Assembly (NCBI GenBank): GCA_001784565.1
Contig: MFRL01000001.1
Span: 1 to 46,535 of the forward strand
DNA from: Candidatus Melainabacteria bacterium GWF2_37_15
GTDB taxonomy: Bacteria > Cyanobacteriota > Vampirovibrionia > Gastranaerophilales > UBA9971
DNA: 46,535 nt
Direction: 5' to 3'
The position numbers were made by a program, and so were the translations under genes. A model generated the notes under the pieces. That model searched no databases. It was not told where the DNA came from and worked only from the letters and a program-made list of their open reading frames with translations. Below are positions 3,777 through 44,044 of the stretch, piece after piece; the stretch's first letter is position 1; each line of letters begins with the position of its first letter.

Positions 3777-4109
3777 ATGATTAAAAGTATTTCTCCTGCA
3801 TTTAAAGCAAGTTATATTCCTGAATACCCGAATGCACAACAGGCAGGAACGCATAAAAAAGCAATTTTAGCCAGAGCCGCTGAACTTGGTGAAAACGTAA
3901 CAGTAAAAACAGTAAATGTTATTGAAACAAAAAATCCTCAATGGTCTCCACTAGATTTAAGAATTGTAACAGAAGCTCCAAGGGAAAAGAATGATAATAC
4001 TGCCAGTAATGAAAAAGAAGGGTTACATAGTGATCAAATAAGTAAGATATTTGAAGCTTTTGATAGAAAATCATTCCTAACTAATACCATTAATTTAAAT
4101 GTAAATTAA
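3777..4109 (+). CDS. Small lineage-specific protein with N-terminal PAFKAS motif
   Basis: A 110-residue protein of unknown function. P-A-F-K at residues 7-10 matches the short N-terminal motif seen in several genes here. The sequence is hydrophilic with no signal peptide or membrane segment; the last third (SDQISKIFEAFDRKSF) should be helical. A T-tract/TTTTATA element precedes it and a 12-bp-stem terminator follows at 4129-4168, so it is a single-gene unit. The ribosome-binding site is weak. Confidence 0.65.
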   Translation: MIKSISPAFKASYIPEYPNAQQAGTHKKAILARAAELGENVTVKTVNVIETKNPQWSPLDLRIVTEAPREKNDNTASNEKEGLHSDQISKIFEAFDRKSFLTNTINLNVN

Positions 4110-17061: not shown

Positions 17062-17574
17062 ATGAGTATTAGTATTAACTCAACATCAGGTATCACACAA
17101 AACAATTTAGCCGCAAATAAATCTTGCCAGCCTCTTTTAAAGTCAGCACCGCTAGCCTCCGACACATTTGTTTCCAGTAAACAAAAATCCAACGTGAGTT
17201 TTGGAGCCTTACCAGGAAAACTAACACCAATTACAGTAAACCAGATTACAGGGTTTGTCAGAACAATAAAAAAGATGGTTGATGGAAAACTTTCCAAGGA
17301 CTCTGCACACAAAGTTAACACCCATTTAAAAGCAATGTTAGGTAACACTCCTAAGGCAGCAGCAGAAAAAGATAAAAATAACGAGATTTTTAAGGGTTTG
17401 AACTTCAGTAAAATGCTAGAACAACTATTTGATATGCAAACGTCTAATGCCGTATCACGTAAGAACCAGCAGGCAGTAAATCAAGTTTGGCAAACACTAG
17501 AAGCCGGAAAATCCGTTGAAGAAGCCGCAAAAGTTTTATCCCCTTATACACTTCCTGCAAGAGCTTTTAAATAA
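17062..17574 (+). CDS. Lineage-specific protein with N-terminal VSFG motif
   Basis: A 170-residue protein of unknown function with an excellent AAAGGAGG ribosome-binding site. Residues 1-44 are Ser/Asn/Lys-rich and probably disordered, followed by N-V-S-F-G at 44-48, then a helical domain (ITGFVRTIKKMVDGKL, HKVNTHLKAMLG, FSKMLEQLFDMQ, VWQTLEAGKSVEEAAKVL). No signal peptide or membrane segment. It precedes the PBP1A gene by 86 bases, and the two may share a transcript. Confidence 0.72.
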   Translation: MSISINSTSGITQNNLAANKSCQPLLKSAPLASDTFVSSKQKSNVSFGALPGKLTPITVNQITGFVRTIKKMVDGKLSKDSAHKVNTHLKAMLGNTPKAAAEKDKNNEIFKGLNFSKMLEQLFDMQTSNAVSRKNQQAVNQVWQTLEAGKSVEEAAKVLSPYTLPARAFK

Positions 17575-26993: not shown

Positions 26994-27025
26994 AAAAATT
27001 AAGCAGGTTTATGCTTAATTTTTTT
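26994..27025. terminator. Bidirectional terminator between exbD copy 2 and the antitoxin gene
   Basis: AAAAATTAAGCA (26994-27005) and TGCTTAATTTTT (27012-27023) form a perfect 12-bp stem with a six-base loop, with T tracts in both directions. It overlaps the last codons of the convergent antitoxin gene. Confidence 0.85.
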
Positions 27026-27322
27026 AACAGTTAACTGAAATCCCAATGAATTAAGGATTTTGCTTACTGTCAAAAATTGCGGCTGTGTCTCATTTTTCAT
27101 AATTTTATAAATATGTGATCTATCTATGTTAGCTTTTTTAGTAAATTCTGATATATTCCCCTGAGCTCTTATTAGTAATTCCAAAGCGTTTGCAAATGCT
27201 TCAAAGTTATTATCCTGCTGGTATTCTTCTAGAATAGCGTCAAGAAAAGCTTTTGCTTCTTTTTTGTCTTTTAACCTTTCCACAAGGAAATCGTCGAATT
27301 TTATTGATCTATTAGTAACCAT
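26999..27322 (-). CDS. Antitoxin of an addiction module (HTH, TIGR02684/HigA-like)
   Basis: A 107-residue protein whose N-terminus (KFDDFLVERLKDKKEAKAFLDAILEEY) precedes a helix-turn-helix (GNISEFTKKANIDRSHIYKIM ... PQFLTVSKILNSLGF). This matches the addiction module antidote family paired with RelE/Gp49-type killers. AAGGAG precedes its start, which follows the toxin stop with no gap. The toxin-first order resembles higBA. The C-terminal lysine-rich end is encoded within the terminator stem. Confidence 0.9.
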   Translation of the reverse strand: MVTNRSIKFDDFLVERLKDKKEAKAFLDAILEEYQQDNNFEAFANALELLIRAQGNISEFTKKANIDRSHIYKIMKNETQPQFLTVSKILNSLGFQLTVKKIKHKPA

Positions 27323-27649
27323 TTATTTATTCTCCTTATATATTTTTAAGTATTCTTTTGCTTTAGTTATATCTTTATTTTGAATTGATTTATCACCGCC
27401 TAACAGTAACAAAATAATAATATTATCAATTTCCGAGTAGTATATTCTATAACCTGAACCAAATTGAAGTCTTAATTCGGAAACTCCGTCAGACAGGTAT
27501 TTGTAATCTCCAAAATTTCCATATTTTAATCTGTTTAATCTTGTTTCTATACGTGCTCGTGTAGAAAAATCCTTAATAGAATCCAACCAGTCATTAAGTG
27601 GGCATTTACCTGATTTTGTTTTATAAACTTCTATTTCTTTCATAAACAT
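27323..27649 (-). CDS. RelE/Gp49-family toxin (addiction module killer protein, HigB-like)
   Basis: From ATG 27649, chosen because GGGGAG lies 11 bases upstream, the toxin has 108 residues. Family features are IEVYKTKSGKCPLNDWLDSIKD, ARIETRLNRLKYGNFGDYKYLSDGVSELRLQFGSGYRIYY and LLLLGGDKSIQNKDITKAKEYL. These proteins are ribosome-dependent mRNA interferases. An in-frame ATG at 27682 would add 11 residues but lacks a ribosome-binding site. Confidence 0.9.
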   Translation of the reverse strand: MFMKEIEVYKTKSGKCPLNDWLDSIKDFSTRARIETRLNRLKYGNFGDYKYLSDGVSELRLQFGSGYRIYYSEIDNIIILLLLGGDKSIQNKDITKAKEYLKIYKENK

Positions 27650-27685
27650 ATTGTAGCAAACTCCCCACACTTTTTCAAGCATAAA

Positions 27686-27716: not shown

Positions 27717-28976
27717 ATGCACACCGACCTCACACAAAAAGACTTAAAATACATCTGGCACCCGTTTACCCAGATGAAAGACTACGAAACCGACGCCCCA
27801 CCGCTGATTATAGATAGAGGTGAGGGTATCTACATTTGGGACATTGATGGCAATAAATACATTGATGGTATTTCTTCCTGGTGGGTAAATACTCTGGGCC
27901 ACTGCCACCCACGGCTTAATGCGGCATTAAAGCGGCAAATTGATAAAATAGAGCACGTCCTGCTAGCGGGATTTTCCCATGTACCGGTAATTGAACTAGC
28001 TGAAAAGCTCATACAAATTACCCCACCCGAACTAGCAAAGGTTTTTTATTCTGATAATGGTTCTACCGCTGTGGAAGTCGCACTTAAAATGGCTTATCAA
28101 TACTGGCAACAGTCAAATCAGCCCCAAAAAACCAAATTCATTGCCCTGAAAAACTCCTACCACGGCGATACACTCGGATCGGTGTCTGTGGGTGGAATTG
28201 ATGTTTATCACAAGCTCTATAAACCGCTGTTATTTGACATTTATCAGGCGGAAATGCCTTATCCTGATTCAATTGAAACAATCTTAAAAGAACATCATAA
28301 AGAAATCGCCGGGCTTATTGTAGAACCGTTAGTCCAGGCCGCTGCGGGAATGCTTATGTATCCTACTGAATACCTCACGCAATTCCGAAAACTGTGCGAT
28401 AAATATGATGTACTGCTTATTGATGATGAAGTTGCAATGGGATTTGGCAGGACAGGTCAGATGTTCGCCTTTGAGCATGCGGGTATTGTCCCTGACATTA
28501 TTTGTCTTGCAAAGGGTTTAACTGCCGGATATCTTCCTTTGGCTGTTACAATAACCACTGAGCAAATTTATCAAGCGTTTTATGACGATTATGATAAATT
28601 CAAGACTTTTTTCCATGGCCACAGCTTCACAGGGAACCCTCTTGCGGCTAGCGTAGCAGTAGAAAACCTTAAAATATTTGAGGAAGAGAAAATAATTGAA
28701 TCCCTGCAGTCCAAAATTCAATGCCTGAAAAAAAACTTGGAAAAATTCCGGAATCTGGATTATGTTGAGGATATCCGGCACATTGGGATGATAGGCGCTG
28801 TGGAGTTTAAGGAAAACATAGGCAAAAATATATACAAAGAAGCCCTGAAACGAGGCGCAGTGCTGCGGCCTTTAGGCAAAGTAGTTTACTTTATGCCACC
28901 TTATGTGATTACAGAAGAGGAAATTGACCGCTTAACCGATATCGCTGTTGATGCAATTAAGGCTGCTTTGGGTTAA
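27717..28976 (+). CDS. bioA: Adenosylmethionine-8-amino-7-oxononanoate aminotransferase
   Basis: BioA makes 7,8-diaminopelargonate in biotin synthesis using SAM as amino donor. The 419-residue PLP enzyme has the diagnostic N-terminus YIWHPFTQMKDYE, ISSWWVNTLGHCHP, the cofactor-contacting IDDEVAMGFGRTG, and the PLP lysine in LAKGLTAGYLP. No other bio genes are nearby. No Shine-Dalgarno sequence is visible. The 3' end overlaps the convergent GH13-like gene by 20 bases. Confidence 0.96.
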   Translation: MHTDLTQKDLKYIWHPFTQMKDYETDAPPLIIDRGEGIYIWDIDGNKYIDGISSWWVNTLGHCHPRLNAALKRQIDKIEHVLLAGFSHVPVIELAEKLIQITPPELAKVFYSDNGSTAVEVALKMAYQYWQQSNQPQKTKFIALKNSYHGDTLGSVSVGGIDVYHKLYKPLLFDIYQAEMPYPDSIETILKEHHKEIAGLIVEPLVQAAAGMLMYPTEYLTQFRKLCDKYDVLLIDDEVAMGFGRTGQMFAFEHAGIVPDIICLAKGLTAGYLPLAVTITTEQIYQAFYDDYDKFKTFFHGHSFTGNPLAASVAVENLKIFEEEKIIESLQSKIQCLKKNLEKFRNLDYVEDIRHIGMIGAVEFKENIGKNIYKEALKRGAVLRPLGKVVYFMPPYVITEEEIDRLTDIAVDAIKAALG

Positions 28977-31900
28977 ATTCTTCTTCCCTGTAAAGAAGCA
29001 ACGCATTGTCTTTTATTTCTATTTGCTTACCATCAGCTTTAACCAGCTGGCCTTTATCATTTATGACATATTTACCATCTTTTTCGTCACGCGCATTTAT
29101 ATAAACCGTTCCTGGCTTCAGTCCGCCTGGCACGCCGAGTTCATTTTTATCATCTCTTGTTGTATCTATAAACGGTATTGTAGCAAAACTCACTTTATAA
29201 TCACCATGTTCTGTCTTGTGAATACCTGCTGCATTAATTATTGCAATAACATCTCTATCCTTGTTATACCTGTATAAAGGAATAATCTTGTCATTCTGGG
29301 TTCTTTGCAGCATTAACATCTGACCATCAATAAGCGGTGATAAGTTTGAGTTCTTTCTAAGGGAATTAATATCTTTTAATTCATTATTAAACTGTACAAT
29401 AGGATCTTTCTCATCTCTTTTCAGCCATTCGAAATGCACGCGGTTTCTATTATACAGGGACATATTTTTACCGTCGGATTCAAGGCCTGTTTCTGCCATT
29501 TCCTGACCATTATACATTGTTGGGCAGCCGGGAAGTATTTGTTTGTATAGCTCAACCGCCTTTATTCTTTCCATACCGGGTTTGACAAAGTTTACATGAA
29601 CTTTTTTAGCAAGCTGTTCTAACTGTTGTTTGTCTAATTTTTCGTTCAGTTTTGCTTCTTCAACTATATCTTCCCAGTTATGGTTAACAGCCCTTCTGCC
29701 AAATTGTTCAGGCGCCTTCATTGCTACAGCGTCAATAGCAGCTTTAACTGCCTTAATATCCTGCCCCCCTGCCTGTTTATACGATTCCATAATCGCATCA
29801 GCCGCGACTAGTGCAGGACCGTATTTTACTTTTTTATTAGGGTCTACCTTATTTAGATCATTAATTCGCTTCCTATATTCCTTAAATTTATCAGATAAGC
29901 CTGCTTTCTTTATTCTATCGTCATTATCTATCCAGCCATTATTCCACTCTTTACAAGTAAAAGCCATTTGGTTCTCTTTTGTCCACCATTCTTCCCCTGC
30001 AAAAGCTTTGTCCAGAATCTCTTTTTTAATTAATGGTATGGTTTGTTCAAGTACCTGGTCATATTCCTTGGAAGGTGATACCTTCTCTCCAAGCTTAGTA
30101 TCTTTCCATCTCTCGAGTTTAGTTTTGTCTATATTTCCGGTTTTATACTCATCTTCATCCACAGATAAAATATGCAGTGATCGCTTCATATCATGGTTAT
30201 CTGTAAATACGTGTGAGTATAGTACAGAATCAACAGGGCCATAACGAAGGAATCCCGGCGTTGTATTCGGGTCTCCGGAACCACCCCAACCGTTAATTAA
30301 TTTTTTATATGCATAATCAAATGCGTTGTTCTTATCTTCATAACTGCTTCTTGTCAGGTCAGGCAAGAAACCAAACAAATATGTATAATTACTTTCAGTT
30401 GTAAATCCTGTCTGTTCTATGAATTTACTTACTACTTCGCCTGCGTGTTTATAATTGCCTTTAGCATATCCATCAGGACGTCTAGGATCACCTTTAAAAT
30501 TATCAGAGAGATTAGAATATTCAGCTATAGAGTATTGTTTTGGATTTTCTTCCTGAACTCCTTTAAGGAATCCTCTCCATACTTTAATGACTTCAAGCCA
30601 GTTTTCTGCAAAGGTGTTTTGCTCTCTTGGATGATCTTCTTTATAAACAGGCTGGAGATTAGCCGCATCTTTTGCAGCGTCGATTCTCCAGTTAAGTCCT
30701 GACTCGGTTTTATTAATAATCAGTTTTGCAATCTTAAGTGTATTATCATTAAGCCCTTCAACACGAGTTTCAAGATATTTCTGGAATTCTTCCTTGTCCT
30801 GTTCTGTAATATTTTTATCAAGTCCTGCAGAAATAGCATCAATTAAGCTGTTAGCTTCATTTTCATGGCTACCCTTGGTTCTTCCTGCTTTTGCCCAGTT
30901 TATGAAAGATTTTTCAGCAAGTTCTTTTGGGTTATATTTCGGCGAGAGTGGGTTTATGTTTGCCAGGCCTTTAACAATAAAATATTTTGTGACATCGCTG
31001 GATAACACCCTGAATATTGCTTTACCTTCAGGGCTCAGGTTCCCCTTATCATCCAGCATTTTACCTTCTAATGTCGGGCTGTCTTTAATAATTTCCTTAA
31101 CCAATTTATCTATTTTTTTGTAAACTTCGTCATCCATTTTTTTATGGTGCATATCCCCGTAGTTGCCATTTTTAAAGATTTCATATCTTGAAACCCCGAT
31201 TTTATCAGGGGTTGTGGCAAGTTTTTTAAGGTATGGACTACTAAGGAATGAGCAAATTTCATCAGGGAATTCTATTGCTTCAAGTGGCAGGGACATAATT
31301 CCATCCATTATGCTTTCAGGCAGTGGCGCTGCCGATAATTTATAATTACCTGCCAGAAGATTTTCTATTTCTTCTTTTTTTATAAGATCTACGCTTTCCG
31401 GCGGAATAGCTTTCTCTTTTTTTAATTCCTGTATCGCCTGCATTATTGTTTGAGCGTTTGGGTTCTCTCCAATTTTTTTATGAAGCTCTTTTGCTGTGTA
31501 TTCAGATAAGGTTTTTTCTACTTCTCCTGTCCAGTATTTCCCGATTTGAACAAGATTATCCTGAACCTGCGAGCAGGCTTTGTCTAATTTTTTAAGTTTA
31601 ACAGGGTCATTTTCTTTTAATTCCCTTCTCTCAGTTTTCGATACAAAAAACCTTAATTTGGGTATATCATTCTGTCCATCCCAAAGATCCACATTGCTTC
31701 CTGATTTAGGATGAACAATCTCAAAATGCCTGCCCCAATCCGTTTTTTTAATGAAATCTCCCGCATTAATAGGTTTGTTAACTTCCTTTTCTAACTTTTT
31801 CTCAATACTTTCATGCTCGACCTCAGCAGAAAAAAGCTGGACAGAATCATCAAAATTCTTTAATTCATTATAATCCTTAGGCTCTACATTATAACGCTGT

Positions 31901-33012
31901 ACTATTTCATTATCATTTTGTTTATCAATAGAAACATAACGCCTGTCAAAAATCTGGATTTTTGTGGGCAAATGCTCGTTATCACCTTTATAATCCGGAT
32001 TTTCTTCAACTATTGGGTCTTGTTTGCCTTCTACATATTTGAGTCTGTACGGGCCGTTAATTATTTTTATTCCTATATGATTATCTGTAGTTGCTTTTTT
32101 GTTCCTATTAGGAAGAAGCTGAAGTTGTAATTTTCCGGAACGATCCTCAACAAAACTTTCTGAAGGGTAAAACCAATTAAGGAAAGGCGATTCAGCTTTT
32201 GCATTTTGAGTTTTTGAGCCGTAATTCACAACGTCTTTAATATGTATGCCTTCCCAGCTCTCGTTTACAAACGCTCCATCAGCAATAAATCCCATCCCTC
32301 TTTTAAATAAATCAATTTGAAGATTTTTGAAATCAGCAAGTTTACCCCTTGTCTGGTCTACCTGGTAGGCATTTTTAGTCCAGTATCCGTTGCTGTTGGC
32401 AGGGCCGTTTGCAAAAACCGGAGTACTCAGAATCATTGTATTGCCCATACCTTGAATATGATCCAGCCTGGTTATTATGTCTTTAATTTCTCCGCCAAAG
32501 TTATTAAAATGAGTACGCCTGTCAGGCATAGGCTTTCCGTATTTATCAAGTTCCGGGCCTATCATATCGGGCATAAGGTGATAAATTGCAATATTTTTTA
32601 TCCTGTCTGGCCTTGCAGGATCCCACGCAAGGTTAAAATCTTCTTTTCCATTTCCATCTAAATCAACTCTTCTGACTTCATCAAGGATTATATTTTCTCC
32701 ATCCCTGAACCTGTAAGCAAGTTTTGATTCAGGGCCTTTTATGTTGAGAATTTTTGATTTTTCATCATTTCCTGGTTTCCACATTTTCAGAAAACTGTTT
32801 GTGCTTGGTGCAGGAAGGATCTCCGGTTTTCCTACCGCTTCATAATTGCCTTTTTCATCCATTTTTACACGGACTACTTCAAGTTGAATTGGTTTTAAAC
32901 TGGGCTGGTAAAAAGTATGGTATTTTGTACCGTCAAGATTCGTTCCTACAGACAATCCCTTAAAAGCAGGCACCTTTTTTTGCGGTACGTTTCCTCTGGA
33001 AATTATCTCCAT
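28957..33012 (-). CDS. Giant GH13 (alpha-amylase superfamily) protein with roughly 480-residue insertion and N-terminal PAFKG motif
   Basis: The 1351-residue protein has V-P-A-F-K-G at 14-19 and no signal peptide. Residues 25-130 look like a beta-rich starch-binding or N-domain. The barrel starts near 142 (IAIYHLMPDM); GYWTKNAYQVDQTRG (209-223) and GFIADGAFVNESWEG (241-255) match GH13 beta2 and region I, with the usual Asn-His changed to Asn-Glu. About 480-490 residues (roughly 285-770) separate this from region II, WRIDAAKD (nucleophile D778). SIAEY (E831) is region III and TDNHD (D941) region IV. The end has GH13-type PTMYNGQEMAETG. The catalytic triad is therefore intact. Divergent from the 33179 operon; substrate unknown. 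Confidence 0.8.
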   Translation of the reverse strand: MEIISRGNVPQKKVPAFKGLSVGTNLDGTKYHTFYQPSLKPIQLEVVRVKMDEKGNYEAVGKPEILPAPSTNSFLKMWKPGNDEKSKILNIKGPESKLAYRFRDGENIILDEVRRVDLDGNGKEDFNLAWDPARPDRIKNIAIYHLMPDMIGPELDKYGKPMPDRRTHFNNFGGEIKDIITRLDHIQGMGNTMILSTPVFANGPANSNGYWTKNAYQVDQTRGKLADFKNLQIDLFKRGMGFIADGAFVNESWEGIHIKDVVNYGSKTQNAKAESPFLNWFYPSESFVEDRSGKLQLQLLPNRNKKATTDNHIGIKIINGPYRLKYVEGKQDPIVEENPDYKGDNEHLPTKIQIFDRRYVSIDKQNDNEIVQRYNVEPKDYNELKNFDDSVQLFSAEVEHESIEKKLEKEVNKPINAGDFIKKTDWGRHFEIVHPKSGSNVDLWDGQNDIPKLRFFVSKTERRELKENDPVKLKKLDKACSQVQDNLVQIGKYWTGEVEKTLSEYTAKELHKKIGENPNAQTIMQAIQELKKEKAIPPESVDLIKKEEIENLLAGNYKLSAAPLPESIMDGIMSLPLEAIEFPDEICSFLSSPYLKKLATTPDKIGVSRYEIFKNGNYGDMHHKKMDDEVYKKIDKLVKEIIKDSPTLEGKMLDDKGNLSPEGKAIFRVLSSDVTKYFIVKGLANINPLSPKYNPKELAEKSFINWAKAGRTKGSHENEANSLIDAISAGLDKNITEQDKEEFQKYLETRVEGLNDNTLKIAKLIINKTESGLNWRIDAAKDAANLQPVYKEDHPREQNTFAENWLEVIKVWRGFLKGVQEENPKQYSIAEYSNLSDNFKGDPRRPDGYAKGNYKHAGEVVSKFIEQTGFTTESNYTYLFGFLPDLTRSSYEDKNNAFDYAYKKLINGWGGSGDPNTTPGFLRYGPVDSVLYSHVFTDNHDMKRSLHILSVDEDEYKTGNIDKTKLERWKDTKLGEKVSPSKEYDQVLEQTIPLIKKEILDKAFAGEEWWTKENQMAFTCKEWNNGWIDNDDRIKKAGLSDKFKEYRKRINDLNKVDPNKKVKYGPALVAADAIMESYKQAGGQDIKAVKAAIDAVAMKAPEQFGRRAVNHNWEDIVEEAKLNEKLDKQQLEQLAKKVHVNFVKPGMERIKAVELYKQILPGCPTMYNGQEMAETGLESDGKNMSLYNRNRVHFEWLKRDEKDPIVQFNNELKDINSLRKNSNLSPLIDGQMLMLQRTQNDKIIPLYRYNKDRDVIAIINAAGIHKTEHGDYKVSFATIPFIDTTRDDKNELGVPGGLKPGTVYINARDEKDGKYVINDKGQLVKADGKQIEIKDNALLLYREEEFNPKQP

Positions 33013-33040
33013 ACATTCCCCTTAAAATAAAGTGATACTG

Positions 33041-33133
33041 TATATAAACTTGTAAAGGTAAAAAATTGCCATAATAAAACCTTTTCTTAAAAAAAATTTA
33101 CATTTAAAACTTAAAAAAAAAGGCAATTTTTTT
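33041..33133. promoter_or_regulatory. Divergent regulatory region with GGCAATTTTTT inverted repeat
   Basis: The 166-bp gap between the two divergent operons carries GGCAATTTTTT in both orientations: 33060-33070 on the minus strand facing the giant GH13 gene, and 33122-33132 on the plus strand facing the 33179 gene. Each is followed at 10-13 bases by a TTTATA element and then the start codon. It may be two promoters with the same recognition sequence or paired operator sites. Confidence 0.42.
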
Positions 33134-33178
33134 CTTGTTCTGCTTTTATACTATTAGGTATTAAGAGTTAAGGTCAGG

Positions 33179-34225
33179 ATGCTTAAAAATACAGGTTTTT
33201 ATCCGGTTAAAATCAATGAATCTTGTCCAGCGTTTGGCAACCAGGATGAGCTACTGCCTAATGACAGAATTACAAAAGTAAAAACAGGCGTTAAGCAGGC
33301 CTCAAAGCTTCCCAAATATGCGGTGGAAGGCTTAAAAGGCAATGAAGACGCAAACTTCTTTGAATTTTTGCAGTTAGGCAAAATCCCCTATTGGGTAGGC
33401 GGCCTTGTACTGGTAGGATGCTTTGCTGCAGGTGGAAAAAGCTCGATTCCGCTAGCAAAACAAAAAGCAGCAGGAGTTTTGCTTTATTACCTGGCAGCTA
33501 TGGCAGCAAAGGCCTTAATTAACAAACCGGTCAAGTTTTTTAAAGGAGTCGACCTTAACAGAAAATATGATGATCATGTTTCTCTTCAGCAAAGAGACGA
33601 AAAAGGGGAATCCCTGAAAAAGACAGAACTCCATAATTTATATGAAAGCATTGATTTTACCAGATGGGATTTATTATATAAGAATCAACAGGCACACGCA
33701 GCCTCAAACCCTGGTTTAGTAAACGAGGAATATGAGGACATCCTTCTTAAAATGGGACTGGATAAAAACCTGAATGACCCAGATTCTACGGTAAAGCCAT
33801 ATGTAAGCAAAATAATTGTAGCATCCCGTGCCTGGAAATCACTCCTGAGCGTTCCACTGGCCGGGCTTGCAATTGGACTCTCTACCTGGGATGGATGGCA
33901 GGATTGGGGCGATGGCTTTAAGAATAACCGCAAAAATGCGTTTAAGGGCATAAAGGCATTTAATAATAATATTATAAAACCTTATATTACTCAGCCGCTG
34001 GCAAGAAGCTTTGCTCATTTATGGAAAGGAAATGGATTTAACAACAAAATAGCCAAAAAATTTGGCGGAAAAGCTCTTATTCTTGCGCCTTTAGCAGCAA
34101 CAGCCTGGGCTAACCTTAATATATTAAGAATAACCTACCTTAAAGAAGACAAATACATTGATGCCAACAAAACAGGAAACAAAAACAACCTAATTAAAAG
34201 GACTTTCAACGCATGGAAATCCTGA
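33179..34225 (+). CDS. Multi-pass membrane protein with N-terminal PAFG motif, first of a paralogous pair
   Basis: A 348-residue protein of no recognised family. C-P-A-F-G sits at 16-20. Likely membrane segments are YWVGGLVLVGCFAAGG, AAGVLLYYLAAMAAKALI, LLSVPLAGLAIGL and ALILAPLAATAWANLNIL. Between the second and third lies NKPVKFFKGVDLNRKYDD, which matches AKPIKAATGVDLNLEY in the next gene; both pass from membrane segments into this motif, so the two are paralogues. It ends 13 bases inside the next gene. AAGGtcAGG supports the start. Location in the membrane beside GH13 enzymes suggests a scaffold or transporter role, which is inference. Confidence 0.7.
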   Translation: MLKNTGFYPVKINESCPAFGNQDELLPNDRITKVKTGVKQASKLPKYAVEGLKGNEDANFFEFLQLGKIPYWVGGLVLVGCFAAGGKSSIPLAKQKAAGVLLYYLAAMAAKALINKPVKFFKGVDLNRKYDDHVSLQQRDEKGESLKKTELHNLYESIDFTRWDLLYKNQQAHAASNPGLVNEEYEDILLKMGLDKNLNDPDSTVKPYVSKIIVASRAWKSLLSVPLAGLAIGLSTWDGWQDWGDGFKNNRKNAFKGIKAFNNNIIKPYITQPLARSFAHLWKGNGFNNKIAKKFGGKALILAPLAATAWANLNILRITYLKEDKYIDANKTGNKNNLIKRTFNAWKS

Positions 34226-36177
34226 CCTTAAAAAATCAATATAATAATTCCCCGGCTATAGCCCCGGTTATAGATTTATACGCAAATCTTAGAACCGGGA
34301 ATAATCCTGAAAATAATTACTATGAAATGAAAAATGCCGGAAGAAATCCTGGCATAAGCAAGCAAAAAGGCCGAATGGTAAAAGGCTCGCTTTTCCCAAA
34401 CCCCGTAAAGGAACTTTCCAGAGATCTAAAAACCTTCAAAAAGGCTTTAAAAGGACAGGGAACTGACTATTCCATAGGAAAGTTAAACGATCTGGCCATA
34501 GCTTCCGGCACAGGGTTAATAGCTTTAACGCTTTCAGGAGTCCAGAAAGTACCTCATGCAAGAGCAATGGAATTTATAGGGGCAGGTGCCTGGTTAGCTT
34601 CAATGCATTTATGGCCAAAAATATTCCTTGCAAAACCCATAAAAGCCGCAACAGGAGTTGACCTGAACCTTGAATATATAAACGCACAGGGTGACAAAAA
34701 ACCATACTGGCAGGATCCTCAGTATATTCCAATGGATTTACTGGATAAACAAACCCTTGATAAAGCAGCGGACAAGCTCAATGTTCCAAAGGATATGAAG
34801 GACAGGGATGAAGAAACTTTCCGCAGAATGAAAAAGGTTGCTACAGGCACAAATACCTGGTGGATGCTGACAGCAGGATTCTCCACGCCAATAATGGCAA
34901 GCATTATTGCAAACAAAATGGAAAGACCTGCTCATTATATTATTGATAATTACAACATAATAAAGGCACAGGCCCAGCTGGAAGCAGCAGGGATATCTAC
35001 GGGTCCAAAGAATCTTCTCGTCAAGATAGGAAAGAAATTAATTAAGCTGAGCAACCACTTTAGACCGGACAAAGATCAAAAAGCACTGGAAAAAGTACTT
35101 GTTACTGGAAATCAGGAAGCAATAGAAACTTTCTTCAGTAATAAATTTAAGAATACGAGTCTTTTCCATCCTGTCTTGAATGAAATAGAAGATGCCTTTA
35201 ATGAGGAAAAATTACCAAAAATTCCGGAAAGGTTAACCAAAGCTTTTGATGATGCAAATAAATTAATAGAAGTGGACAAAGCATTTAATAACTACTCTGC
35301 AGCGTTGAGCAGGAGAGCAGGACGTTTACGGGAATATGCAGCAACAAAAACACTCACGAAATTATTTACCAGAAAAGAAATCAAAGAAATTCCAAATTCA
35401 GAAAAAATAGCCCAAAGAGCTATAGATATAGCAGAAAAAGAAGGCAAAACAGAAAATATTATAAAAATGCTTGAAAAGATAGCTAAAAAACCTATAGAAT
35501 ATGCAACGCAAGTTTATGACCGTCTTGCTGAGCTATCCGGCAAAATGGCGGAAAGAATAGAAACAAATCCTTTCGGCAATTCAGTAACAAAAAAAGCAAA
35601 TGAATTAATACAAACAGCGGGATATAAACTTACAGGCACGGAAGCAACCTTTGGGAGAATCCCTCAACTACTTAGACAAGCAAAAGACCCGGCAAAGCAT
35701 GGAGTTGGAGATGTAATAAACGGATTCATTCAAATGGATCATGCCATAACGCATGATAGTCCTATCCTTAAAAAGCTCGCAATGATGGCAAGGAGCCTCG
35801 TACCGCATGATGTATGGAACTCCCTTGCTAAAAACCCTACAGATGACACCTTTTACTTAAATATAGATAACGCAAAAGAATTCCTCGAAGGACTCTTTGG
35901 CAAAGGAAAGCGTGCGATAGGTGCGCTGCTGAAATTTTTACCGCAAAACCGTAAGTCAAAAGAAAGTATGAGCAAACAAGTAAGCGATATGATCGGAGAA
36001 ACACCGGCTGACTTCCTACAAAAAATCGCAAAAGAATATAATAACAGCACAAATAAATGGTTCACTCGCGTAGGAGTAATAGGTGGAGGAGCTTTACTCG
36101 CCACAAGCGCAGCAGCACTTTATATGATAATAAACAATGCCAAAAAACCTGGAAAAGAGGGGGTAAAAAGAGTATGA
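34213..36177 (+). CDS. Membrane protein with long helical domain, second of the GVDLN paralogous pair
   Basis: A 654-residue protein. The N-terminal 240 residues correspond to the preceding gene: hydrophobic segments (LAIASGTGLIALTLSG, FIGAGAWLASMHLWPKIF), then KPIKAATGVDLNLEYINAQG and a third hydrophobic stretch (WWMLTAGFSTPIMASIIA). Residues about 250-610 are hydrophilic and strongly helical, probably partly coiled coil. A final membrane helix (VGVIGGGALLATSAAALYMII, about 620-640) ends in a lysine-rich tail. No signal peptide and no family recognised. Its stop overlaps the start of the following GH13 gene (ATGA), so the three genes form a tight operon. Confidence 0.72.
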   Translation: MEILTLKNQYNNSPAIAPVIDLYANLRTGNNPENNYYEMKNAGRNPGISKQKGRMVKGSLFPNPVKELSRDLKTFKKALKGQGTDYSIGKLNDLAIASGTGLIALTLSGVQKVPHARAMEFIGAGAWLASMHLWPKIFLAKPIKAATGVDLNLEYINAQGDKKPYWQDPQYIPMDLLDKQTLDKAADKLNVPKDMKDRDEETFRRMKKVATGTNTWWMLTAGFSTPIMASIIANKMERPAHYIIDNYNIIKAQAQLEAAGISTGPKNLLVKIGKKLIKLSNHFRPDKDQKALEKVLVTGNQEAIETFFSNKFKNTSLFHPVLNEIEDAFNEEKLPKIPERLTKAFDDANKLIEVDKAFNNYSAALSRRAGRLREYAATKTLTKLFTRKEIKEIPNSEKIAQRAIDIAEKEGKTENIIKMLEKIAKKPIEYATQVYDRLAELSGKMAERIETNPFGNSVTKKANELIQTAGYKLTGTEATFGRIPQLLRQAKDPAKHGVGDVINGFIQMDHAITHDSPILKKLAMMARSLVPHDVWNSLAKNPTDDTFYLNIDNAKEFLEGLFGKGKRAIGALLKFLPQNRKSKESMSKQVSDMIGETPADFLQKIAKEYNNSTNKWFTRVGVIGGGALLATSAAALYMIINNAKKPGKEGVKRV

Positions 36178-37940
36178 ACTTTGTAAATAACTTTACCTTT
36201 AATCCTTATTACCAGCAACAAATGTGGCCTCAACAGCAGCAGAAACAATGGCCTCAGCTTCAAACTACAGTATCTAATGTGCCTTTAGCCCCAGCTCCAA
36301 GGCCTATTCTTGAACCAATAAAACCTAAAGATAATTTTGTGTGGAAAAATGACCTTAAACAGCATTTTGAACAGAATAAAAGTGTTATTTATGCAATGGT
36401 TATGCGAACTTTTAATGCCCAGGACAAAGACGGTGACGGCCTTATAGATAGTGATAAAGGTGAAAAAAGAGGTACTTTTATTAACGCAATAGACAGGCTG
36501 GACGAACTAAAAGCACTGGGTATAAATACCTTACACATGCTTCCGATTACACCGCCGGCCAAAAAGAATGCCATGGGCATAGCAGGCTGTGTCTATGCTG
36601 CAGACAGTTATACAGAATTAGATCCTGCTCTGCGTGACCCAAACCACCCCGGAAATGTTTATGACCAGGCAAGAGAATTCATAAAAGAAGCCCATAAAAG
36701 AGGTATAAGGGTAATGATCGATCTGCCTAGCTGCGCTTCAGTTAAATTTGCAGAAAAGAATCCTCACCTTATAGCATTTAACCCTGATGGAACACCCAAG
36801 GTTCCCCAAGGGTGGGATGATATTAGAGCTTTCAGGGTATGGGATGATGAAAAAAAACGCATCCTTAATAAACCTCTTCTGGACATGCACAAACAATTCG
36901 TTGATATGATAATAGGTATAGGTGCTGATGGAATCAGGGCTGACGTGGCAAGATACAAGCCACCCGAGTTTTGGCAGGAACTTACTGGTTACGCAAGGAA
37001 AAAAGATCCGAATTTTGCTTTCCTTGCAGAAACATACACCTATGAAGATGCCTCACCAATGGCAAATATCCCTGCTGATAGGCCGGAAGATCTTTTGAAT
37101 TCAGGTTTTGACCTGATATACGGGCAGTATCACATATTCCCGCTATGGAATTCAGCTTCACAGGTTCATAATTATGTAAAAGAAATAACTGAAATGAGCC
37201 ATAAAGTACCTCCTAATAAGGGACTAATCGGATCATTCGCTACACACGACGATAAAGCATCATTTTCAAACGGCGGAGTGCCTTATTGTAATATGTCAAG
37301 CGCCCTCCAGGCAACATTACCCATGACAAACCCTTATTTTATTACCGGATTTGAATCAGGTGACAGATATCTTTATCCATACAGAAATAAATACATCTCA
37401 AAAACCGAAACTGATTCTCATTTAGCTTTTACGCACCCTGAATGGCTTGATATATTTAACCCTTCAAGAAAACCTGGCGGCGAACACCCTGAAATAGGCG
37501 AATATATGGGCAAAATATTCAAAATGAGACAAAAATATGAAAATATAATAACAAGAGGATCATATATTCCGCTCAAGGTAAAAAACAATAGTGACGATGC
37601 TATCATTGCATATGCAAGACATCACAAAGGCAGAACCCTGGTTGTTATCGCAAACAAAAACGTAAACGCCCATGAAACAGGCCGTGTCTTAATACCAACT
37701 TTGAAGAAAACCCAGAGTTTAGCCGACTTATCTCCTTCTTATGGTACTCCCAGCAAGGTGAAAGTATTAAAAGGTAGCCTTGAGGTGAATCTTGGTCCGG
37801 CACGAGCCCATATTTTTGAAGTGGACACTCCTGACATTGAAAAACATTTAAAAGAAATTTACAGGCCCAACCAGCAGTTTCCTGAGGTTAAAGAGCCTGT
37901 AAAAAGAGATATGTTAAGCATTTATCATTCAATGAAGTAA
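36174..37940 (+). CDS. GH13 alpha-amylase-superfamily enzyme with Gln/Pro/Trp-rich N-terminus
   Basis: ATG 36174 overlaps the upstream stop; a longer in-frame reading would only translate the end of the previous gene. The 588-residue protein has a low-complexity N-terminus (about 10-45), then a GH13 barrel. NAQDKDGDGLID is the calcium-loop-like DxDGDG segment common in the family. Region I is MIDLPSCAS (D183, lacking the usual Asn-His), region II GIRADVAR (nucleophile D257), region III FLAETY (acid/base E286), and region IV THDD (H358, D359). The triad is intact. A beta-sandwich C domain follows. No signal peptide, so a cytoplasmic glucan or maltooligosaccharide substrate seems likely. Confidence 0.9.
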   Translation: MNFVNNFTFNPYYQQQMWPQQQQKQWPQLQTTVSNVPLAPAPRPILEPIKPKDNFVWKNDLKQHFEQNKSVIYAMVMRTFNAQDKDGDGLIDSDKGEKRGTFINAIDRLDELKALGINTLHMLPITPPAKKNAMGIAGCVYAADSYTELDPALRDPNHPGNVYDQAREFIKEAHKRGIRVMIDLPSCASVKFAEKNPHLIAFNPDGTPKVPQGWDDIRAFRVWDDEKKRILNKPLLDMHKQFVDMIIGIGADGIRADVARYKPPEFWQELTGYARKKDPNFAFLAETYTYEDASPMANIPADRPEDLLNSGFDLIYGQYHIFPLWNSASQVHNYVKEITEMSHKVPPNKGLIGSFATHDDKASFSNGGVPYCNMSSALQATLPMTNPYFITGFESGDRYLYPYRNKYISKTETDSHLAFTHPEWLDIFNPSRKPGGEHPEIGEYMGKIFKMRQKYENIITRGSYIPLKVKNNSDDAIIAYARHHKGRTLVVIANKNVNAHETGRVLIPTLKKTQSLADLSPSYGTPSKVKVLKGSLEVNLGPARAHIFEVDTPDIEKHLKEIYRPNQQFPEVKEPVKRDMLSIYHSMK

Positions 37941-42427: not shown

Positions 42428-44044
42428 ATGATAGTCATAGATTTAATAGCCTGGATTCTTTTCATCTACCTAGTTTATATAGTTATTTACAGGTTTGTAA
42501 TTATCTTAAATTCTTCTAAAGGAAGAATGACTGATATTAGCAAGCGGGAATATCAATCGAAAATCGAGCGTAAACTTACTGTTCTGATTTATTCCCGCAA
42601 TAATTCCATAAAAGTAAAATCCCTTGTAGAATCATTCTCCAGGCAACATTACAGTAAAGAAAAGTTTTCAGTTAATGTTATTCTCGATAACTGTGACAGC
42701 GAAAACATAAAGCTCCTCGAAATCATAGGCGGGGCCAGGCTGTGGAGAATAAACACTAACGTAAAGCCTATTGGTAAATATAAAGCATTTGCATGGCTTC
42801 TGGAAAGAATCAGGACTTGCGAAAATACAAATGCTTTTGTTTTTCTCGACGGGGACTGCATAATTAAAAGTGATTTTTTAGAGAAAGTAAACGCAAGCCT
42901 CAGTGAAGATGCTGTTATTGCAGGTGAAACAATAAAAAGGAAGAAATTCTTTTTAAACAAAATAATTAACCTTAAAAACAAAATTAATAACAGGGCAATC
43001 AGGCATGGCAGATTTTATTGCGGCCTTGGAAACATAATTGATTCAGATGTTCTTATAATAAAACAGGATATTCTTGAAAAAATTGATTTTCTATCAAGTG
43101 AGCACGGATTTGAAGAATACGAATATTCACTTAAATTAAATTATTTTAATATTCCTGTTTTTTACTCAAGTGATGTAATTGTGAACAAAAACCAGATTGA
43201 AACCTTAAAAACCCTTGTACTTAAGGATTATCAGCAAAGATACAAAGCTCTTAAAACATTTTTAAACAACTTTAATATATTATTTTCCCAAAACAAATTA
43301 ACCGTTAAAGAACAGGTTTTATCGCTTGTTTATCCTTCAGGAGTAACCTTTACTTTAGGGAATTGTGCGTTGCTGTATATTTCTCTGGCATACCCTGGCA
43401 GCTGGTTTTCACAAATCATAAGCACAAATCTTCTTCTGGTATTGCTGCTTTCCAGGTTCACTACTGACCTGCAATGCCTTATATCAATGAGGAGCAGTTT
43501 GCGGGATTATCAGTATGCCATTATGTTTTTCTTTATAGCTCCTGTAATATATGCAAAATCACTATTTGCAGGCTTTATAGTCATGCCGGAGCGCAAAAAA
43601 GAAAAAAGAGTAGATCATAATGTTAATGTATCCAATTTTGAAAAAAATATTGTGGATGTAAAAATAACTAACGGAAAAAGTGAATTTCCTGCCACACTTG
43701 AAATAAGCAAAAGCGATGAAAATTCCAGTGTTACCTTTATTTTTAAGGATAAAAAACTTAAATCATCAAAACAGCCTCGGGTTTGCTACGCAGTGGAAGA
43801 AATCGTAGCCAAGCTGAAAGAGCATGGATTTTCTCTCAAGGTGTGCGTAAACTGCGGGTATTTCCATCTTACTGAATCAGCTGCAGCACATACAGAGGGA
43901 GAACAAGGATATTGTCTTTTTAGAAACTTTAAAGAGGATTCCAAAGAAAAAGACTTTACACCCGCCTGGAGTTCCTGCGAGAAAATAATTCCTGCACAGG
44001 CAAGAAATTATATTTACCATGAAATGGGGATTGAGAAGAAGTAA
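42428..44044 (+). CDS. Membrane glycosyltransferase family 2 protein with C-terminal cysteine-rich domain
   Basis: A 538-residue protein. An N-terminal membrane helix (about 1-28) precedes a GT2 domain: LTVLIYSRNNSIKVKSLVESF, VILDNCDSEN, and FVFLDGDCIIK with the DxD-type metal site. Further membrane helices follow at about 300-390. The last 140 residues are unusual: a beta-rich region, then C473-x2-C476, C496 and C517 (CVNCGYFHL ... GYCLF ... SSCEK), which could bind zinc. It converges with the 44048 gene. It may build a surface polysaccharide or glycolipid; acceptor and donor are unknown. Confidence 0.85.
   Translation: MIVIDLIAWILFIYLVYIVIYRFVIILNSSKGRMTDISKREYQSKIERKLTVLIYSRNNSIKVKSLVESFSRQHYSKEKFSVNVILDNCDSENIKLLEIIGGARLWRINTNVKPIGKYKAFAWLLERIRTCENTNAFVFLDGDCIIKSDFLEKVNASLSEDAVIAGETIKRKKFFLNKIINLKNKINNRAIRHGRFYCGLGNIIDSDVLIIKQDILEKIDFLSSEHGFEEYEYSLKLNYFNIPVFYSSDVIVNKNQIETLKTLVLKDYQQRYKALKTFLNNFNILFSQNKLTVKEQVLSLVYPSGVTFTLGNCALLYISLAYPGSWFSQIISTNLLLVLLLSRFTTDLQCLISMRSSLRDYQYAIMFFFIAPVIYAKSLFAGFIVMPERKKEKRVDHNVNVSNFEKNIVDVKITNGKSEFPATLEISKSDENSSVTFIFKDKKLKSSKQPRVCYAVEEIVAKLKEHGFSLKVCVNCGYFHLTESAAAHTEGEQGYCLFRNFKEDSKEKDFTPAWSSCEKIIPAQARNYIYHEMGIEKK

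Follow-up and report, generated by a model that had tools for sequence, protein, structure and literature searches.

The stretch of DNA analyzed here (the window, 46,535 nucleotides) comes from a Candidatus Gastranaerophilales genome (Vampirovibrionia; 2.27 Mb in 102 contigs, 92 % complete), whose close named relatives are metagenome-assembled Candidatus Gastranaerophilales or Melainabacteria. In it, two genes for GH13 proteins, one of them a giant, flank the genes for two membrane proteins. An earlier note on this DNA had proposed that the four genes specify a membrane-tethered apparatus for the synthesis, storage or degradation of glucan. We therefore asked what these proteins are and whether they belong together. 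The genes are called bigGH, mem1, mem2 and smGH, and their features are collected in Table 1.

Table 1. Predicted genes and sequence features of the four-gene locus (window coordinates)
Feature	Position	Strand	Basis or conservation
Giant GH13 (bigGH), 1351 aa	28957-33012	-	Pfam PF00128, AlphaFold model, conserved triad
Helical insertion 2 of bigGH, about residues 962-1159, between region IV and the final strand of the barrel	29536-30129	-	Model
Helical insertion 1 of bigGH, about residues 459-768, within domain B	30709-31638	-	Model; positions of D245 and D778
N-terminal FxG leader motif of bigGH, PAFKG	32956-32970	-	F17 and G19 invariant in 36/36 covering sequences
Divergent intergenic region, 166 bp, 23 % G+C, presumed divergent promoters	33013-33178	.	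Recurrence of the layout in family f9
GGCAATTTTTT element, 11 bases then TTTATA, 58 bp before bigGH	33060-33070	-	
GGCAATTTTTT element, 12 bases then TTTATA, 57 bp before mem1	33122-33132	+	
Membrane protein 1 (mem1), 348 aa	33179-34225	+	Four weakly hydrophobic segments (profile hydropathy)
N-terminal FxG-type motif of mem1, PAFGN	33227-33241	+	Orthologues have INFSA, IRFNG, TFGES and similar near the N-terminus
Membrane protein 2 (mem2), 654 aa	34213-36177	+	Paralogue of mem1; long helical middle, C-terminal hydrophobic segment
Small GH13 (smGH), 588 aa	36174-37940	+	Pfam PF00128, PDB profile matches, triad

The arrangement of the genes is as the earlier note described it. The mem1/mem2 and mem2/smGH overlaps are 13 and 4 bases, provided that smGH starts at the ATG at 36174; this ATG is preceded by a GAGGGGG ribosome site, and the longest mechanical ORF begins at 36057. 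bigGH diverges from this trio over 166 bp, in which the same GGCAATTTTTT element occurs once per strand. The stated difference from the glgABCP operon also holds, as no glgA, glgB, glgC or glgP is present in the same operon in the window; the GlgA and the phosphorylase of this genome are encoded on other contigs. On one side the locus adjoins an aminotransferase class III gene and on the other the genes for a 4-TMS holin-like protein, a thiamine-binding protein and a histidine kinase, so that the four genes stand alone here. Elsewhere in the window there is a probable addiction module (26999-27682), in which an antidote matching PF21716 (26999-27322) lies beside a RelE/HigB-looking ORF (27323-27682) for which no Pfam match was found, and a 538-aa protein (42428-44044) whose N-terminus matches glycosyltransferase-2 weakly, below the cut-off.

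Membership of both enzymes in GH13 was borne out by matches to PF00128, at 53.6 bits for bigGH and 25.8 bits for smGH against a cut-off of 22. The triads, previously reported as intact, are strongly conserved among homologues: in bigGH, D778 and E831 are each present in 41/41 sequences and D941 in 40/41, and in smGH, D257 and E286 are each present in 112/112 and D359 in 110/112. R776 and H940 of bigGH are also invariant in 41 sequences. One of the two smGH homologues without D359 is the second copy found in genome G081 (locus L205), which has degenerate motifs. Region I reads DGAFVNE in bigGH and DLPSCAS in smGH; both are without the usual Asn-His and thus depart from the canonical Asp-x-x-x-Asn-His. 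Neither protein has an N-terminal signal peptide or hydrophobic segment, again in agreement with the earlier note, and smGH retains about 50 % identity across the whole order. The note had also raised the prospect that each GH13 protein might cluster with an enzyme of known independent function. Both were instead found outside the groups of known function: the best NCBIfam equivalog scores were 40.4 of 540 bits for bigGH (cyclomaltodextrinase) and 50.8 of 875 bits for smGH (MalA). TreY was considered for each and rejected, since the TIGR02401 scores of 25 bits for bigGH and 28 bits for smGH are far below the cut-off of 498.65 bits.

An AlphaFold model of bigGH (residues 133-1332, 36 aligned sequences) reached a pLDDT of 85.7 and a pTM of 0.89. 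Its barrel superposes on that of cyclic maltosyl-maltose hydrolase with a Z of 35 and a deviation of 2.6 A, 424 of 440 residues being aligned, and it superposes on those of neopullulanase and cyclomaltodextrinase as well (PDB 5zxg, 1vfm and 1j0j). Compared with these enzymes, bigGH is longer by approximately 770 residues, most of which lie in two helical insertions, and has Glu where their region I has His. Roughly 530 residues of the model make up domain B, which separates region I from region II. As modelled, bigGH is a cyclomaltodextrinase-type catalytic barrel with two large helical insertions.

For smGH, the best match to a solved structure in a PDB profile search was a Thermotoga AmyB-type GH13 (4gkl, E 1.4e-26), followed by the Thermotoga maritima maltosyltransferase (1gju, E 1.2e-22); the profile also matches 3dhu, and GlgE structures at approximately E 1e-15. 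The AmyB-type protein differs from smGH in keeping the region I Asn-His and in having no membrane partner. The maltosyltransferase has a similar barrel start and, like smGH, is missing the region I Asn-His, but the alignment is partial and the identity low; moreover, it is a soluble enzyme that is not known to have a membrane partner. These solved relatives, together with the absence of Asn-His from 1gju as well, suggest that smGH is a transglycosylase. There is some likeness to the GlgE pathway (the maltose-1-phosphate maltosyltransferase with TreS, Pep2 and GlgB), in that smGH matches GlgE and the genome has TreS, but the locus is without GlgB, Pep2 and TreS and has membrane proteins in their place. 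Gastranaerophilaceae have another smGH homologue, about 515-520 aa long. Two of these were read (L211:9681-11228 and L212:9860-11407); both have a signal-peptide-like start and lie beside a ROK-kinase-like gene, and to judge by this start, the second homologue is probably an exported form.

Because the region I Asn-His is missing from both GH13 proteins, the -1 subsite would be unusual. This might be taken to mean that the substrate is a small alpha-glucoside, such as sucrose, trehalose or maltose isomers, and not a glucan chain, and the matches of smGH to the NCBIfam TreS model and the sucrose-symporter-like neighbors described below point the same way. The closest relatives of both catalytic domains, however, use malto-oligosaccharides or cyclic glucans, and we regard a small-glucoside substrate as quite unlikely.

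The two membrane proteins are paralogous, as had been claimed (hhalign 97.5 %, E 6e-12 over about 230 columns), and they belong to no named family: neither had a match among Pfam, NCBIfam or PDB sequence profiles, the PDB profile matches of mem2 being dismissed as coiled-coil noise. Profile hydropathy reveals four hydrophobic segments in each, the first three at corresponding places. These segments are weakly hydrophobic (mean Kyte-Doolittle values of 0.9-1.6, and weaker still in single sequences) and may be membrane-embedded hairpins instead of classical spans. The charges flanking the segments do not fix the membrane orientation; the C-terminus of mem2 is expected in the cytosol, given that smGH carries no signal for export. 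The model of mem2 (pLDDT 81) is mostly helical with a long coiled middle. It had no convincing fold match: the designed helical bundles and the helical proteins resembling pore toxins that it matched, at Z 5-7.5, were judged to be noise, the best PDB match (Z 7.5) being in the range usual for unrelated helical models.

When 146 genomes sampled from the class were searched, mem1 was found in 65 and bigGH in 63. The two occur together in 63 of the 65 carriers and bigGH never occurs without mem1; the two genomes with mem1 and no bigGH are G044 (99 % complete) and G121 (56 % complete). Carriers are found in the window's order and in two further families, f9 and f15, and both genes are missing from the listed genomes of families f8 and f10-f14. 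Such counts are phylogenetically non-independent, but at least three separate lineages agree. Within the window's order mem2 is present in 53/60 genomes, and proteins like bigGH, of 1,100-1,500 aa, are found in most genomes; G002, G004, G006, G011, G017 and G018 are without mem2 and bigGH and have at most weak generic GH13 matches. In a sample of the phylum, mem2 was found in 85/194 genomes, every one of them a member of the window's order. For smGH, matches at E 1e-20 are confined to that order except for one marginal match. A scan of contigs with the smGH alignment gave 358 relatives; a scan of genome contigs with the single bigGH sequence gave no matches, and a search of plasmids for mem1 found none.

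About 100 loci, spread over three family groups of the class, have mem1, mem2 and smGH together in one operon. Among fetched loci, to which one genome may contribute more than once, the layout mem1-mem2-smGH was seen in 92, and in 8 the trio is followed, mostly directly, by bigGH on the same strand. The median mem1-mem2 distance in these loci is 1 base and the median mem2/smGH overlap 4 bases. The order smGH-mem1-mem2 occurs in L079 and L112. The position of bigGH varies between lineages: in some it follows the trio directly or diverges from it, and in others it is located elsewhere. The divergent layout of the window, with bigGH facing away from mem1, recurs in five f9 loci (L202, L203, L204, L209 and L210), although mem1 of L210 fell below the single-stretch threshold of the layout survey and was seen when the locus was read. 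In the largest family, Gastranaerophilaceae, and in family f6, bigGH is unlinked to the trio. Scattering of the four genes in related genomes, which the earlier note had named as grounds for abandoning a common system, is thus confined to bigGH: the trio is contiguous almost everywhere, and bigGH, while unlinked in two family groups, still co-occurs with it. That unlinked position is what would be expected of mere neighbors with independent roles, but the gene order conserved across families, the overlaps, the near-perfect co-occurrence and the fusions described next make such independence highly improbable.

In L204, L209 and L210, which represent three f9 genera, mem2 and smGH are joined in a single open frame, in which the GH13 domain follows the final hydrophobic segment of mem2. 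In these genera the enzyme is therefore physically tethered to the membrane, and a fusion in a relative is good evidence that the separate mem2 and smGH proteins work in contact. Genome G081, which carries the fused form, also has a second copy of the trio (L205:8971-13227), whose smGH has lost the His-Asp of region IV; that copy is thus decaying or repurposed.

Ties between a GH13-type domain and membrane proteins have a precedent in the SLC3 heavy chains (rBAT and 4F2hc), which are bound to amino-acid transporters. The tight linkage and the fusion could accordingly be read to mean that the GH13 domains serve the membrane proteins as partners or chaperones in the manner of SLC3, with catalysis secondary. 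The catalytic residues, however, are conserved in practically all copies, which counts against a purely structural role, since such a role would not require them. Moreover, SLC3 heavy chains are single-pass proteins whose domains lie outside the cell and whose partners are APC transporters, whereas in the four-gene system the enzyme is predicted to be cytosolic, its active-site residues are intact and its partners are unrelated. A chaperone function is thus very unlikely.

The genes around the operon differ from family to family. In f9, an MFS symporter of the sucrose/SLC45 group lies beyond bigGH in 5/5 loci with bigGH adjoining the operon, and in f15 a ROK-family kinase gene is near the trio in 2/3 loci. 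A glgC gene is near the trio in one relative only (G005), at L079, which has the smGH-mem1-mem2 order. These neighbors point to alpha-glucan or alpha-glucoside metabolism but do not fix the reaction. Elsewhere in its genome the window's organism encodes GlgA, a short phosphorylase, TreS, TreZ, a MalQ-TreY fusion and a GlgX-like protein. Given this conventional alpha-glucan set, the four-gene system would add to glycogen and trehalose metabolism and not replace it. The MalQ-TreY fusion (1478 aa) directly adjoins TreZ (L108:2593-8686), and the GlgX/isoamylase-like protein (L109:7825-10848) has about 430 extra N-terminal residues that carry the leader motif described below.

A different role is suggested by uppP- and kdsC-like genes, recognized by a look at their sequences only, which adjoin the trio in many Gastranaerophilaceae and would fit an envelope function equally. 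The four proteins might then synthesize and export an envelope or extracellular alpha-glucan, with mem1 and mem2 as the conduit, smGH as an elongating maltosyltransferase and bigGH as an editing enzyme. Transferases (the T. maritima maltosyltransferase and GlgE) are indeed among the closest solved relatives of smGH, two membrane proteins are dedicated to the system, and the exporter of mycobacterial alpha-glucan is likewise unknown (PMC11046441). However, the locus is without a glycosyltransferase, GlgB or maltose-1-phosphate enzymes, the transporter-type neighbors in f9 are of the sugar uptake type, and the model of mem2 has no convincing fold match. We consider export unlikely.

The description of the locus as an undescribed, membrane-linked GH13 system is well supported by these genome comparisons. 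As an explanation of the whole we favor, tentatively and at slightly less than an even chance, an alpha-glucan-processing unit, specific to Vampirovibrionia, that is docked on the inner membrane from the cytoplasmic side. The paralogues mem1 and mem2, with four membrane segments each, would form the dock. smGH would sit on mem2, to which it is translationally coupled and with which it is one polypeptide in some genera; as an active retaining GH13 it would most likely act on short alpha-1,4-glucans, disproportionating or trimming them by maltosyl-sized steps. The giant bigGH, in the cytosol, would act on the same material, and the two enzymes would convert imported or internal maltodextrin or glycogen chains to sugars for a kinase. 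Of the original proposal, the undescribed nature of the system stands, and its membrane tethering has direct evidence in the mem2-smGH fusions of three genera; the glucan substrate and the direction of the reaction we infer, as we do the complex in unfused species, the membrane orientation and the roles of the insertions.

The element in the divergent gap raises the further possibility of shared regulation. GGCAATTTTTT occurs 2 times in the 46.5 kb window against 0.24 expected, a count reached in 3/100 shuffles, and there are 22 exact copies genome-wide. The combination of GGCAATTTTT with TATA behind it was found six times genome-wide, including twice in the 166-bp gap, and the reversed control pattern was not found. 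A scan of the gap with the sigma-70 consensus found no promoter. GGCAATTTTTT is also upstream of bigGH in G001; the exact 11-mer was not found in the f9 gaps. At C39:21519, C66:10489, C68:2939, C76:3798, C77:5491, C77:35016 and window 33060-33132 it lies 50-70 bp before genes, closer in a few cases, and the products of these genes mostly have the leader motif. In a 0.98 Mb sample, in which some contigs had been picked for holding the element, it was found at most 260 bp upstream of 8/201 genes with an N-terminal F-x-[G/A/S]-type motif, bigGH and mem1 among the eight, versus 2/680 without (Fisher p 2e-4), in most cases at 53-68 bp from the start; the definition of the motif class preceded the reading of the genome-wide copies. 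GGCAATTTTTT is thus a candidate shared promoter or regulon of leader-motif genes.

The motif itself is a polar leader at the N-terminus, whose end reads h-x-F-[GKST]-[GASN]. In the window genome, even with the four families of the locus left out, it is concentrated in the first 56 residues (8.8 vs 3.0 per 1000 ten-residue steps, p 2e-9). The enrichment holds in contigs not picked for the element (p 0.0015) and in relatives (p 3e-5, with some orthologue redundancy), whereas no N-terminal enrichment was seen in 250 kb of Escherichia coli (3.3 vs 3.1). Proteins with the motif, mostly unnamed, are encoded in the window at 792-1193, 3777-4109, 17062-17574, 28957-33012 and 33179-34225 and in other loci at L231:6836-7707, L241:57-458, L085:15900-17435 and L291:3857-4165. 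The leader is possibly a lineage-specific address tag or a translation-level element; in bigGH, F17 and G19 may be no more than the beginning of the N-terminal domain. A bolder suggestion, with a rather small chance of being right, is that Vampirovibrionia have a carbohydrate domain of their own, docked on the membrane, with the four genes as its enzymatic core; the leader would address proteins to it, and their genes would share a GGCAATTTTTT-TATA promoter. A literature search on the four-gene set or the leader motif found nothing relevant.

Gastranaerophilales, which are closely related to Cyanobacteria but do not photosynthesize, are common in the gut and have essentially not been cultured. 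In published metabolic reconstructions, alpha-amylase and the use of starch or glycogen are mentioned in generic terms only (PMC3787301, PMC4040986). The four-gene set has been kept, in genomes of about 2 Mb, by almost every well-sequenced member of the main family. It holds two nameless membrane protein families and two GH13 enzymes outside all equivalog models, and offers a small number of candidates for expression and structural studies. If confirmed, the system would be a membrane-docked GH13 complex in bacteria, and a leader-addressed domain with a GGCAATTTTTT promoter, if true, would represent a new way of organizing alpha-glucan metabolism at the bacterial membrane.
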